A stretch of 24,179 nucleotides of DNA from IMG/VR virus record IMGVR_UViG_3300046780_000180, positions 1 to 24,179 of that record; one strand, given 5' to 3'. Made by a program: the position numbers and the translations under genes. The notes beneath the pieces were generated by a model. It ran no database searches, was not told the origin of the DNA, and saw only the letters and a list, made by a program, of their open reading frames with translations. Positions 757 to 14,428 of the stretch are shown in pieces. Origin of the DNA: a virus. Numbering within the stretch: position 1 is the stretch's first letter; every line of letters begins with the position of its first letter.

Positions 757-840
757 CTGCTGGATGCGACGTTGGTTACCGCGAAACTGCCAAATCTGCA
801 AACGCTGCGACTGCTAGCCGCGGATGCGCCGGGGAACTGA
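757..840 (+). CDS. Possible small ORF or frameshifted continuation of the Fn3 gene
   Basis: The +1 frame relative to the Fn3 gene is open from 715 to the TGA at 838-840. From the CTG at 757 it reads LLDATLVTAKLPNLQTLRLL, then ends AADAPGN, a plausible leucine-rich helix with codon use like the neighbours. Its TGA shares one base with the ATG of the zinc-ribbon gene (TGATG), the junction used by most genes in this region. That is the main reason to think the frame is translated. No ATG or GTG exists in the frame. It would need a CTG (757) or TTG (772) start, or a +1 shift from the Fn3 gene. It could also be degraded sequence. Confidence 0.25.
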   Translation: MLDATLVTAKLPNLQTLRLLAADAPGN

Positions 841-1055
841 TGCCCGCGCCCGCTTCACTGTGGTGTCCGACCTGCGCAGAGCAGCGGCTGCACACGTGGA
901 GCGGGATGCGCTGGGGCTGCGTGCGCTGCGGACACCTGTTCGTATCGGTCGTGGTCACCCCGCGATCGAATCCGGAAGCTACGGCGAAGTCCTCGAAGGG
1001 CGGGAAGGCGATGCGCTCGGGGTTCCTGCGGGGACTGAAGTGGCGGCACGCTTGA
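840..1055 (+). CDS. Small zinc-ribbon protein
   Basis: This 71-residue protein has two CxxC knuckles, C9-P-T-C12 and C27-V-R-C30, separated by a 14-residue loop and followed by GHLF. This is the usual layout of a small zinc ribbon that binds one Zn2+. The C-terminus (about residues 40-71) is basic and unstructured (SSKGGKAMRSGFLRGLKW), suited to contact with nucleic acid. The ATG overlaps an upstream TGA (TGATG) and has GGGGAA upstream as a weak ribosome site. Phage zinc ribbons of this size are often called hypothetical. They can be nucleic-acid binders or structural stabilisers. It is the only obvious metal-binding protein in a run of beta-rich virion genes. Function unknown. Confidence 0.7.
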   Translation: MPAPASLWCPTCAEQRLHTWSGMRWGCVRCGHLFVSVVVTPRSNPEATAKSSKGGKAMRSGFLRGLKWRHA

Positions 1056-1092
1056 CGGACGGCTCGAAATGAAGTGCAACAAGTGGATCCTC

Positions 1093-1111
1093 GGGGGAGA
1101 TTGCCACCATT
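1093..1111 (+). promoter_or_regulatory. Shine-Dalgarno plus probable AUU start codon
   Basis: GGGGGAG at 1093-1099 is followed after 9 nt by ATT at 1109-1111, which begins I/M-A-T-F-Q. No ATG, GTG, TTG or CTG occurs in this frame between the stop at 1070-1072 and the TTG at 1181. The spacing is ideal for initiation at the ATT, and the protein family usually begins MATFQ-like. The inferred start is therefore AUU. Confidence 0.5.
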
Positions 1112-1555
1112 GCTACCTTCCAAGTCGTCGATGAGTTTGCGAACTACATAGCGACCGCAGGCGGTACGGCTGGTCCCGACTTGGATGCGGATACCTTCAA
1201 GGCCGCCCTCACCAACGTGGCTCCCACGAAAGCCGGCACGCAGGTACTGGCTGATATCACGCAGATTGCCGCTACGGGCGGTTACGCAGTGGTGAGTCTT
1301 GCATCCGTGACGTTTGCTGAGACGGGCGGTGGGACGGGGATCTGGCAGTTTACCTCGGCCGCCTTCTCCTGGACCGCCTCGGGTGCGGATTTCGCTACGG
1401 CTCGGTATGTCGTGATCTACGACGACACGGCCACGACACCCGCGAAACCGGTTGTGGGATACATCGACTACGGAACGACCTTTATCGTGACCAACGGCAA
1501 TTCGCTCACCGTGACGCCGGGCGCCAACGGAATCTTCCGTATCACGGTCAATTGA
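1109..1555 (+). CDS. Conserved phage structural-type protein, probable AUU start
   Basis: The protein is 148 residues from the proposed ATT start. The N-terminal pattern ATFQVVDEFANYI, then DTFKAALTNVAP and VLADITQIA, matches from memory a widespread small phage protein (typical start MATFQ, then LKVALTNTAP and LADITEIAA) usually found among virion genes. The C-terminal half is beta-rich (WQFTSAAFSWTASG, ARYVVIYDD, VVGYIDYG, VTPGANGIFRI). The first conventional start is the TTG at 1181, which would remove 24 conserved residues, so I prefer 1109. An alternative is a sequencing error or mutation that changed ATG to ATT, or a frameshift from the small ORF at 1069-1134. It ends in a TGATG junction with the next gene. 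Probable minor virion component. Confidence 0.75.
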   Translation: MATFQVVDEFANYIATAGGTAGPDLDADTFKAALTNVAPTKAGTQVLADITQIAATGGYAVVSLASVTFAETGGGTGIWQFTSAAFSWTASGADFATARYVVIYDDTATTPAKPVVGYIDYGTTFIVTNGNSLTVTPGANGIFRITVN

Positions 1556-2298
1556 TGTATTTCCGGGGGAAAATATACGGCGGTTCCCCCGATGCGCTGG
1601 GAATTTCGGACGTCCCCCGCTTTTCAAGCGAGATTCAGATTCCGGAAGTGCCGTTCTTCACCAACTTCCCCAACACTGAAAACCCGCTGTCAGAAAACAA
1701 TCGCTGGATCAACAACGGCGCTCCTGCCAACAGTTTCACGAAGTGTCGCTGTACCCCAGGGTTTGCCTTCGGCACCAACGTTGGCTCGGGCTTCGATGAT
1801 TCCTACGACCACTTAAGCGGGTTCACGGCCAACTACTCCGTCACCGTCACTCTCAAGGTAGCGGGGGGCCTGCCGAACGATGGCAATAGCCGCGAGATCG
1901 AAATCATTCTGCGGCAGAACGAGGACGACTCTAGCGGAGTGAAGTACTACGAAGTTGACGCTGCCTACCTGGGCGCGATCACGGTCGTGCGCCTGGAAGG
2001 GGCGTCGGGCAGCTTCACGGTCTCAGGCTACAACGGCAATGCGCCGGGCGCCTTTTCCACCGGGGACAAGCTGCGCGCTTCGGTCTCGGGAAACGTGATC
2101 ACGGTCGACTACGCGCCGGTGTCCACGGGCATTTTCGGCAATCTCGGATCGGTGAACGTGCTTACCGACACTGCGCTGGCCAACAACGGCAACAAACAGA
2201 ACTACACCACGGGGCAGCCGGGGATCGGCTTCTTCATCCGGCCCGGTGCGAACAATACCGATTTCGGCATTTCCGACTGCACGGTGGCGAACATCTGA
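1555..2298 (+). CDS. Probable virion protein with a lectin-like (LamG/ConA-type) beta sandwich
   Basis: The 247-residue product starts at the ATG in a TGATG overlap. After about 60 N-terminal residues (IPEVPFFTNFPNTENPLSENNRW) it has a long beta-rich segment. Stretches such as YSVTVTLKVAG, REIEIILRQNEDD, KYYEVDAAYLG, ITVVRLEG and GDKLRASVSGNVITVDY are the strand series of concanavalin/LamG-like domains, and it ends with GQPGIGFFIRPGANNTDFGISDCTV, typical of that fold. The role in the family is carbohydrate binding or passive virion decoration. Neighbouring genes encode other single beta domains, so a surface or tail structure is likely. No catalytic residues can be assigned. Confidence 0.7.
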   Translation: MYFRGKIYGGSPDALGISDVPRFSSEIQIPEVPFFTNFPNTENPLSENNRWINNGAPANSFTKCRCTPGFAFGTNVGSGFDDSYDHLSGFTANYSVTVTLKVAGGLPNDGNSREIEIILRQNEDDSSGVKYYEVDAAYLGAITVVRLEGASGSFTVSGYNGNAPGAFSTGDKLRASVSGNVITVDYAPVSTGIFGNLGSVNVLTDTALANNGNKQNYTTGQPGIGFFIRPGANNTDFGISDCTVANI

Positions 2299-3032
2299 TG
2301 CCCATCGTCGGCACGCCTACCACGAATACCAGCTCCGCGGGCACCTCGCTCAGCATCACGCGCGCCGGAGTCACTGCGGGCAACACGCTTATCTTCGCCG
2401 TGGGCTACAACGACACCTCGGGAGGCGCAGGCCCTCCGGCCACCGCCACCGATACGAACGGCACGGTATCGGTTGCCCTTAAACCTGCGGCTCAAACCGC
2501 GGGGGCCGTTTCCTGTGGTGTCGCGATCTTCTTTGTCCCGAACTGCAATTCCGGATCGCACACGTTTGCGATGGGCTCCATTGGCGGTGGGGGCACCCTG
2601 TATTCAGGGGGTGCGGTCATCGAATGGTCGGGCCTGACCAATACGCCGTTGGATCAGACCGCAGGACCGGGGACCTCGCAAGGCGCATCGACCACGACGG
2701 GCAATACGGGTACTTCAGCAGCGCTCTCGCAGGCGACTGAATTGGTCGTAGCGGTTCTGGCGATTGCTTCAGGGGCGGGGCAAGCCAACGCTGCCATTTC
2801 GACGGCGTCCAGCGGCTACACATCTGTCTTGACGCTGAACAATACATCCACAGGCCCAGGCGTGCAGATTTCTTACAAGGAACCTAATAGCACCGCGGGG
2901 CAGATCGCGACGTGGACGTGGTCCGTGGGCAGTCCGGATGCCACGCAGCTCTCGACCGAGCAGGGCCTGGCGACCTTTCTTGAAACCATTCCGCCCTTCG
3001 TGTCCTTCCTGCCGCTCTTGGGAGTGGGCTGA
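2298..3032 (+). CDS. Beta-rich virion-type protein
   Basis: The 244 residues are rich in Gly, Ala, Ser and Thr and nearly free of charge. The pattern VTAGNTLIFAVGYND, TDTNG, AIFFVPNCNSGSHTFAM, AVIEWSGL, PLDQTAG and ATELVVAVLA is a recurring beta-sandwich module in phage and secreted proteins (V-x-x-GN-x-L-x-x-x-V, then EYSG-like, then ELLV-like). Two cysteines lie in the middle (VSCGVAIFFVPNC). The start is an ATG in a TGATG overlap. The C-terminus, PPFVSFLPLLGVG, is hydrophobic. I infer a structural protein exposed on the particle. No enzyme motif is seen. Confidence 0.65.
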   Translation: MPIVGTPTTNTSSAGTSLSITRAGVTAGNTLIFAVGYNDTSGGAGPPATATDTNGTVSVALKPAAQTAGAVSCGVAIFFVPNCNSGSHTFAMGSIGGGGTLYSGGAVIEWSGLTNTPLDQTAGPGTSQGASTTTGNTGTSAALSQATELVVAVLAIASGAGQANAAISTASSGYTSVLTLNNTSTGPGVQISYKEPNSTAGQIATWTWSVGSPDATQLSTEQGLATFLETIPPFVSFLPLLGVG

Positions 3033-12179: not shown

Positions 12180-12533
12180 ATGAGCGATTTCTTTGAGATC
12201 GATCCGATCACCGGGATCAAGACCGATTGGAAGTGGAATGAGAACGACCAGCAGTACACGCTGATTCGCACGGCGGATGCGGAACCCGTGCTCGACTACG
12301 CCAAAGCGGTGAGTAACGAGGTCGGGATGAATCGCGAGGACATCAAAAAGGGCTGGTGGCTCTACGCGAAAGTGCCACCCATCGTCATCGTGCAGATGCG
12401 GGCCAAGGGCATCAATATCTTCGATCACACCCACCAAAAACGGATGTTCGAGGAGATCAACGCCTCGTACCCGCACCTGAAATGCACCACGGGGAAGGAA
12501 TTCGGCACACCCAAGCAGGTGTTCCTTGGATAA
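12180..12533 (+). CDS. Conserved small head-region phage protein
   Basis: The 117-residue protein begins FFEIDPITGIKTDWKWNEND and continues YTLIRTADAEPVLDYAKAV, GMNREDIKKGWWLYAKVPP, then MRAKGINIFDH. I recognise this as a small conserved protein encoded next to capsid genes in several podoviruses (FYDP-x-TG start, later K-x-x-WW-x-x-A-x-x-P), without known function. The ATG follows a G-rich stretch (GGGGGG) about 4-9 nt upstream that may serve as ribosome site. The stop overlaps the next start by 8 nt. A role in the head-tail region is possible. Confidence 0.7.
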   Translation: MSDFFEIDPITGIKTDWKWNENDQQYTLIRTADAEPVLDYAKAVSNEVGMNREDIKKGWWLYAKVPPIVIVQMRAKGINIFDHTHQKRMFEEINASYPHLKCTTGKEFGTPKQVFLG

Positions 12534-14007
12534 GTACCGACAGCTCGAGGAGTGGAGCGAGGGGCCGATTGAGAACTTGAAGCGCGCCTGGCTCACCTGT
12601 CAGGAGATGCTGATTCAGGATCCGAAAGACGTCCGCGCGCTGATCACGGCCTGTTTCATTGCTCGCCGACTGCAATTGCTCCCGCAGGCGTACCACTTCG
12701 GACGTTCCTGTGTGGAACTGTACCCGGACGAGCCCATCGGTTGGATCAACCTCGGGCATGCGTGCGCGGAGTTGTGGTTGGTCCAAGAGGCTGAAGGGTA
12801 CTACCAGAAAGGCTTGACGCTCTCCAAGACGCGTCAGAATCAACTGGCAGCGCTCCTGAATCTCGGGGCCATGTACGTCGATAACGGCTTGTTCGAACGC
12901 GGAGAGGCCGTGACGCGGGAGATTCTGAAGATCGATCCCGAGCACTCGAAAGCACTCGCGAATTTGGCGATCTGCCAGCTCGCTCGGCGGGACTGGTCGG
13001 GTTGGGCCGGCTATCACCGGCTGATCGGCACGCCGTATCGCACCAAAGTGCAGTACCGGGATGAGCCCGAATGGGATGGGACGCCGGGCAAGACCGTTGT
13101 GCTCTACGCGGAGCAGGGCTTAGGCGATGAAATCAGCTTTGCCTCGATGATCCCGGATGCCGCCGATGTCTGTCGCAAGGTCATCTTCGACTGCGACGGA
13201 CGGCTGGAGCATCTATTCCGCCGTTCCTTTCCGCACGTCACGGTGTATGGGACGCGGATCAAGGAGGAGAAGTGGGCGAAAGAGGACTGGAACTTCGATT
13301 GCAGTCTGCCGGTGGGTCAGTTGGGCGAATTCTTCCGCACCACCGATGAGTCATTTCCCGGCACGCCATATCTGAAGCCCTGTCCGATTCGTAGATCCAT
13401 GTGGCGCGAACAATGGACGAAGCCAGCGATTGGCATTGCGTGGACCGGCGGGGTGTCGCGGACGAATGCTCGGAATCGTCGAATCACCCTCGAAGACCTA
13501 TTGCCGCTCCTACAGTTGGATGCGCACTTCGTGTGCTTGCAATACAAGGACGCGAAAGCGGATATCGATATGTTCCACGTGGAACATCCTAACATCGATC
13601 TCACGCAGTATCCGTGGGCCACGCTCACCGACGATTACGATGATACGGCCGCTTTAGTGGCCTCCCTCGATTACGTCGTGACCATTCAAACAGCGGTCGC
13701 GCACACCGCAGGTGCCTTGGGAGTCCCGGTCTCGGTGCTCGTCCCCACCGCGACCAGTTGGCGTTATGGCACGCACGGCGACTGCATCCCCTGGTATCGA
13801 TCCATGAAAGTCATTCGGCAATCACGCGACGGGGACTGGAGAGGTGAAATTGAACGCGCAACCCAACATGTCCGCGCTCATCTCGGACAACTACCGCCAG
13901 GAGCAGGAGAGACTCCACGACACCGGACGTTACGGGGTGGCCTCCATCTCGTACGCCCCAATGGTCTCGCAGATCATCGAGAAGATGGGGATCACCCATC
14001 TCCTTGA
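12526..14007 (+). CDS. TPR protein fused to a glycosyltransferase-9-like (heptosyltransferase) domain
   Basis: The 493-residue product starts at a TTG that overlaps the previous stop by 8 nt. Residues about 20-165 are helical TPR-like repeats (EPIGWINLGHACAELWLVQEAEGYYQKG, cut here as IGWINLGHACAELWL and VQEAEGYYQKG). A GT-B half domain follows, with EQGLGDEISFA at about 196-206, a nucleotide-sugar side GIAWTGG and late motif VTIQTAVAHTAGALGVPVSVL at about 386-405, typical of GT9 heptosyltransferase-like proteins. The family usually ends soon after the R-Q-x4-GDW motif present here near residue 437. The final 50 residues are translated from DNA that also encodes the methyltransferase start. 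Likely adds sugar to a protein or to host lipopolysaccharide. Confidence 0.85.
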   Translation: MDKYRQLEEWSEGPIENLKRAWLTCQEMLIQDPKDVRALITACFIARRLQLLPQAYHFGRSCVELYPDEPIGWINLGHACAELWLVQEAEGYYQKGLTLSKTRQNQLAALLNLGAMYVDNGLFERGEAVTREILKIDPEHSKALANLAICQLARRDWSGWAGYHRLIGTPYRTKVQYRDEPEWDGTPGKTVVLYAEQGLGDEISFASMIPDAADVCRKVIFDCDGRLEHLFRRSFPHVTVYGTRIKEEKWAKEDWNFDCSLPVGQLGEFFRTTDESFPGTPYLKPCPIRRSMWREQWTKPAIGIAWTGGVSRTNARNRRITLEDLLPLLQLDAHFVCLQYKDAKADIDMFHVEHPNIDLTQYPWATLTDDYDDTAALVASLDYVVTIQTAVAHTAGALGVPVSVLVPTATSWRYGTHGDCIPWYRSMKVIRQSRDGDWRGEIERATQHVRAHLGQLPPGAGETPRHRTLRGGLHLVRPNGLADHREDGDHPSP

Positions 14008-14428
14008 CTACGGCTGCGGCTCGCAGGTCAATCTCGCCAAGCATCTGAAGGTCAAAACGAAGCTTACCTACCAGGCGTATGACCCTGGTGTGCCGCGCTT
14101 CTCCAGGGCGCCCTTGCCGGCACAGATGGTGGCCTGTATCGATGTGTTGGAGCATATCGAGCCGGACTATCTGGAAACGGTGTTGAATGACCTGTGTCGC
14201 CTCACGGAAGGCGTGATCTTCCTGACGATCGATACGGCGCCTGCGGTCAAGACGCTCTCAGACGGGCGTAACGCGCACCTGATCCAACAGGATATGGAAT
14301 GGTGGGTCCCTAAGCTCTGGGAGCGCTGGACACTGCAGACGATCCAGATGACCGGCGAGCATTCGTTTCTCGTGATCGGGCAAGCCAAAGCGCATATCGA
14401 AGACCTGGAGGGGAAGGCGATTGTCTAG
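13844..14428 (+). CDS. Class I SAM-dependent methyltransferase-like protein
   Basis: The 194-residue product has a SAM-binding motif I at residues 53-59 (LLDYGCG), an acidic motif II region around YQAYDPGVP, and DVLEH at about 100-104, where the proline-rich PxPADLV-like segment precedes it. The end DGRNAHLIQQDMEWW is a signature of a phage and bacterial methyltransferase family often encoded near glycosyltransferases. The start is GTG with GGAG upstream. An in-frame ATG at 13868 is an alternative. It overlaps the TPR gene by 164 nt in another frame. The substrate is unknown. From context it may methylate a sugar or a glycoconjugate rather than DNA. Confidence 0.85.
   Translation: MKLNAQPNMSALISDNYRQEQERLHDTGRYGVASISYAPMVSQIIEKMGITHLLDYGCGSQVNLAKHLKVKTKLTYQAYDPGVPRFSRAPLPAQMVACIDVLEHIEPDYLETVLNDLCRLTEGVIFLTIDTAPAVKTLSDGRNAHLIQQDMEWWVPKLWERWTLQTIQMTGEHSFLVIGQAKAHIEDLEGKAIV

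Follow-up and report, generated by a model that had tools for sequence, protein, structure and literature searches.

A putative AUU start codon in a predicted phage virion gene and sporadic near-cognate codons at the same position in its family

To our knowledge, near-cognate start codons are known from a handful of cellular genes and have rarely been sought in phages. Phage T4 gene 26 contains an internal AUU start. A search of open-access papers returned no direct phage example of an AUU start. Among bacteria, Xanthomonas infC begins at an ATT for which there is peptide support (PMC5559785), and S. aureus cvfC1 has an AUU start with a strong Shine-Dalgarno sequence and is expressed in poor medium at about 10% of the level obtained with AUG (PMC13009471). 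Here we describe a gene with an ATT at its initiator position, located in a 24,179-base virus record (hereafter the window, meaning the whole stretch of DNA analysed). The virus is a podophage whose portal and major capsid genes are of the SU10 type. The features of the locus are listed in Table 1.

The reading frame 1073-1555, which ends with the TGA at 1553-1555, contains no ATG, GTG, TTG or CTG before the TTG at 1181, as the earlier note had stated, and an NTG start farther 5' is impossible in this frame because the upstream TGA closes it. The earlier note had also proposed that conserved coding sequence begins before 1181, with the ATT as start; alignment with homologues bears out the earlier beginning and places no codon but the ATT at the initiator position. 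In BLASTN comparisons, DNA homology with the nearest relatives, L001 and L002, starts exactly at the ATT (about 77% over 451 bases). The relatives' start codons fall at 1109 and not at 1181: the codon aligned with the ATT is ATG in L001, L071, L074, L003 and L005 and GTG in L006, MW202691 and L073. Over codons 2-24, which precede the TTG, the amino acids of the window gene and L001 are identical (23/23), and the 13 nucleotide differences comprise 13 synonymous and 0 nonsynonymous changes. Judged by this comparison, codons 2-24 are under strong purifying selection right up to the proposed start. We consider a gene start at 1109 nearly certain, and this claim is much firmer than that of AUU being the true and used codon.

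Table 1 Features of the locus around the proposed AUU start (window coordinates).
Feature	Position	Strand	Basis or remark
Gene 5' of the 1109 gene; 71 aa, with a weak resemblance to zinc fingers	840..1055	+	53 nt separate its stop from the ATT
Small ORF MKCNKWILGGDCHHCYLPSRR, out of frame with the AUU and overlapping it	1069..1134	+	No convincing relative
In-frame TGA, upstream limit of the frame	1070..1072	+	Reading-frame inspection
GGGGGAG, Shine-Dalgarno-like site, 9-nt spacer to the ATT	1093..1099	+	Sequence inspection, pairing energy
Imperfect 9-nt tandem repeat ATTGCCACC ATTGCTACC across the start	1100..1117	+	Sequence inspection
ATT at the initiator-methionine position, proposed AUU start codon	1109..1111	+	Aligned with relatives' ATG/GTG/TTG; L001/L002 homology begins there
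Coding sequence, 148 aa + TGA; PHROG 644, probable virion protein of tail-fibre adaptor type	1109..1555	+	Profile match, AlphaFold2, VIA-align
Downstream gene	1555..2298	+	Its ATG shares one base with the stop codon of the 1109 gene

The gene product matches the profile phrog_644 over residues 14-147 (E=2.2e-17), which places it in PHROG 644, a family of unknown function. The AlphaFold2 model (pLDDT 87) has its first strand at residues 3-6 and its first helix at residues 8-16, both before the TTG at 1181. When the model was compared with solved structures by VIA-align, it resembled the T4 baseplate chain 5iv5_BJ (Z 12.6, 132 residues, 2.4 A), a baseplate chain of a Klebsiella phage (KP1-like; Z 13.3) and chain a of entry 8jou, which holds the fiber and fiber-tail adaptor of phage GP4 (Z 9.3, 3.3 A, 122 residues of the 136-residue chain). 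The GP4 adaptor and 5iv5_BJ thus share a fold with the window protein but have no detectable sequence homology to it, and fold alone is no proof of function. Predicted viral structures were matched as well, among them tail-collar fibre and structural proteins. A Foldseek search against the PDB gave nothing below E 0.001 (best match 9d93_Ra, Bxb1 tail tip, E 0.0085), and the family profile had no match among PDB sequences. In Pam1, a relative of the gene lies between the needle-head and needle genes. From fold and gene position, the product is most likely a virion adaptor joining fibres to the tail, and the resemblance of the predicted fold to the GP4 adaptor and the T4 baseplate protein makes the earlier description of a virion-type gene plausible.

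Downstream of the 1109 gene, a relative of the gene at 1555-2298 also occurs near the family member of L003. In the window the 1109 gene and the gene at 3032 are separated by two genes (1555-3029), but their counterparts in L001 and L002 lie side by side; this suggests that 1555-3029 is an inserted or replaced module, perhaps fibre-related. Elsewhere in the window, a TPR gene (12526-14007) overlaps the next, methyltransferase gene (13844-14428) by about 140-160 nt, where the TPR gene of the related MW202512 overlaps its neighbour by 14 nt. The large overlap possibly reflects a frameshift or a lost stop.

We then recorded the codon at the aligned initiator position throughout the family. In a first census an NTG was found at this position, or at most 2 codons from it, in 100 of 101 matched frames, the window alone being without one. 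A wider set, built with an HMM of 19 members, comprised 162 distinct members, with 146 ATG, 10 GTG, 2 TTG and four other codons: the ATT of the window, ATC in L204, ATC in L315 and CTG in L262. After clustering at 98% amino-acid identity, ATG, GTG or TTG was present at or near the position in 165 of 168 clusters and the remaining three had ATT (window), ATC (L204) and ATC (L315). At this threshold L262 joins siblings with ATG; at 90% the window joins L001. On these alignments the putative AUU start of the window gene is not unique, two further distinct members carrying ATC. The scan was also run on all gene families of the contigs, leaving out L169 and L185 (odd consensus columns, NTG farther upstream). 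Of the 335 distinct ORFs for which the initiator column had a clear consensus, four strict cases lacked ATG, GTG and TTG: the window (ATT), L204 (ATC), L262 (CTG) and L179 (ATC, in another family). All four are near-cognates and never ACG, AAG or AGG, a pattern that at n=4 is suggestive only. The L179 gene (L179:7254, IAIITDYPSLNQAVSDYLDR...) carries ATC in the consensus initiator column; its first NTG is codon 24, and GCGGAG lies upstream.

The other family members with unusual codons were inspected individually. L204:582-1007 (IMGVR_UViG_3300044454_000043) reads TAA, AGG AGA ACA AAA and then ATC GCG ACC TTC, so that an in-frame stop lies 4 codons 5' of the ATC; AAAGGAG ends 7 nt before the ATC and the next NTG is codon 29. 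L315:1501-1929 (G987 contig 97) is a prophage-type member from a bacterial genome of 8.8 Mb, where it lies on a contig of 980 kb. Its ATC is preceded by TAGGAGGCGACA with an in-frame stop 3 codons upstream: the TAG overlaps AGGAGG, which is followed by CGACA and the ATC. The identical leader, aggaggcgaca, precedes an ATG in its relatives L329 and L331. Read by eye, L315 and L317 have identical residues 2-10, and the four differences in their DNA there are synonymous. Because there is an in-frame GTG at codon 11, a shorter L315 product is possible by codon content alone. L262:1501 has CTG where the near-identical contigs L265, L268 and L269 have ATG. The start codon holds the single mismatch between L262 and L265 in 2,130 aligned bases, a warning that this codon can be altered in a single contig alone; the change may be an error or natural variation. 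In all, the near-cognate changes in these alignments are sporadic and are not conserved in nearest relatives.

Upstream of the ATT, the GGGGGAG reported in the earlier note was found at 1093-1099, with a spacer of exactly 9 nt. Its pairing energy is -8.6 kcal/mol, a value that 5.4% of randomly chosen window positions equal, and among 37 sampled family members the site comes 7th; for this reason the Shine-Dalgarno sequence is good but not exceptional. The four members lacking ATG, GTG and TTG nevertheless pair more strongly than the canonical ones, for which the median is -6.5 (one-sided p=0.012, n=4), in agreement with the extended Shine-Dalgarno sequences at near-cognate starts of S. aureus (PMC13009471). 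The tandem repeat across the start is possibly a slippage product or due to chance, adjacent 9-mer pairs of this kind occurring at 19 positions in the window against 4.25 expected, many of them from a repetitive stretch at 90-99. Folding of the RNA of 1056-1160 revealed no unusual structure (z 0.21).

The reading that we favour, with a probability of about 0.64, is that translation of this phage virion protein would initiate at the AUU at 1109. On this reading the AUU would be a recent, sporadic and tolerated change from an ATG or GTG in the ancestor, and would not act as a conserved regulatory element. By the simplest mechanism, ordinary 30S initiation, the GGGGGAG would position the ribosome on the AUU and the initiator tRNA carrying fMet would pair with it, so that the protein would still start M-A-T-F-Q. 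Weak initiation and a reduced protein level are expected, published AUU and AUA sites working at about 10% of AUG. Sensitivity of the AUU to IF3 is plausible because excess IF3 inhibits non-canonical starts (PMC2268962). Conservation of the near-cognate codon among relatives, as in infC, was not seen: the closest relatives of the window gene have ATG, and neither L315 nor L262 shares its codon with its nearest relatives. This lack of conservation argues against a conserved or selected IF3-controlled switch.

A first alternative, which we judge unlikely, is that the start position is right but that an error in sequencing or assembly has altered the base, and that the phage population has ATG or GTG at 1109. 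The ATG of all nearest relatives and the lone start-codon mismatch between L262 and L265 would fit such an error, and the ATT is known from a single IMG/VR contig. Neither a near-identical second copy of the contig, sought by exact and degenerate DNA patterns, nor syntenic relatives with an intact start, sought by pattern search via the 840-1055 and 3032 genes, were found. However, none of the window's large reading frames is interrupted and there is therefore no sign of a poor consensus; the confinement of the four strict cases to ATT, ATC, ATC and CTG, albeit in small numbers, and the location of the L315 ATC on so long a bacterial contig also speak against error. Less probable still is that the DNA is right and the allele a recent down- or null-mutation yielding little or no full-length protein. 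The ATT is indeed not conserved in nearest relatives and prophages such as that of L315 can carry decaying genes, but purifying selection acts on the 148-codon frame, which is intact, and the Shine-Dalgarno sequence has been retained.

Two further alternatives would place the start elsewhere and we regard both as very improbable. The earlier note had considered translation from the ATG at 1069 followed by a +1 shift in the G run (or a missed indel), giving an N-terminally extended protein. The small ORF does overlap both the G run and the ATT, but no family member has such an extension and a search for relatives of the small ORF and its peptide found none that was convincing, so that the shift is unneeded and unsupported; moreover, the G run is an ordinary one of five G only, and loss of the initiator codon would still have to be explained independently. 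The small ORF is probably not a gene, although translational coupling through it is possible. Least credible is a start at the TTG at 1181-1183 (+ strand), with the conserved part 5' of it untranslated: it is the earliest NTG of the frame and the choice of an NTG-limited gene caller, but it lacks a Shine-Dalgarno sequence at the usual spacing, would delete strand 1 and helix 1 of the predicted fold, and is ruled out by purifying selection on codons 2-24, the synonymous-only divergence of which needs translation of 1112-1180.

Beyond AUU initiation at this gene, we propose tentatively that AUU, AUC and CUG may be the main starts of phage structural genes at the per-cent level, with strong Shine-Dalgarno sequences compensating, expression low and IF3-sensitive, and standard gene callers truncating the products systematically. 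The scale behind this proposal is about 2% of the distinct members of the family and 4 of the 335 ORFs evaluated across families. Weak start codons that escape gene-finding software seem to be tolerated in phages, or at times put to use. Gene callers limited to ATG, GTG and TTG truncate or drop genes with near-cognate starts, and should the rate seen here hold, the N-termini of a few in every hundred genes would be wrong in some phage families. If the favoured reading is true, the AUU-started tail protein would be a simple natural reporter of start-codon discrimination by IF3 during infection.

The window gene resembles known genes with near-cognate starts: it has a near-cognate codon at the aligned initiator position and no in-frame NTG alternative, a Shine-Dalgarno sequence at usable spacing, and selection on the protein that reaches the proposed start. 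T4 gene 26 offers AUU initiation in a phage tail gene, as proposed here, but its AUU is the internal start of a shorter product whereas that of the window would be the main start. In S. aureus, cvfC1 (AUU) and ccpN (AUA) likewise combine a near-cognate codon with a strong Shine-Dalgarno sequence (PMC13009471); their starts are conserved and were mapped by ribosome profiling, whereas the start in the window is proposed from sequence comparison. The gene for initiation factor IF3 itself, infC, has an AUU initiator with no NTG alternative and a Shine-Dalgarno sequence upstream, and its AUU, like that of the window, was found through homology or upstream peptides (PMC5559785, PMC1805508). In infC the AUU serves autoregulation and has been conserved across bacteria, whereas the window AUU is sporadic and lies in a phage structural gene.
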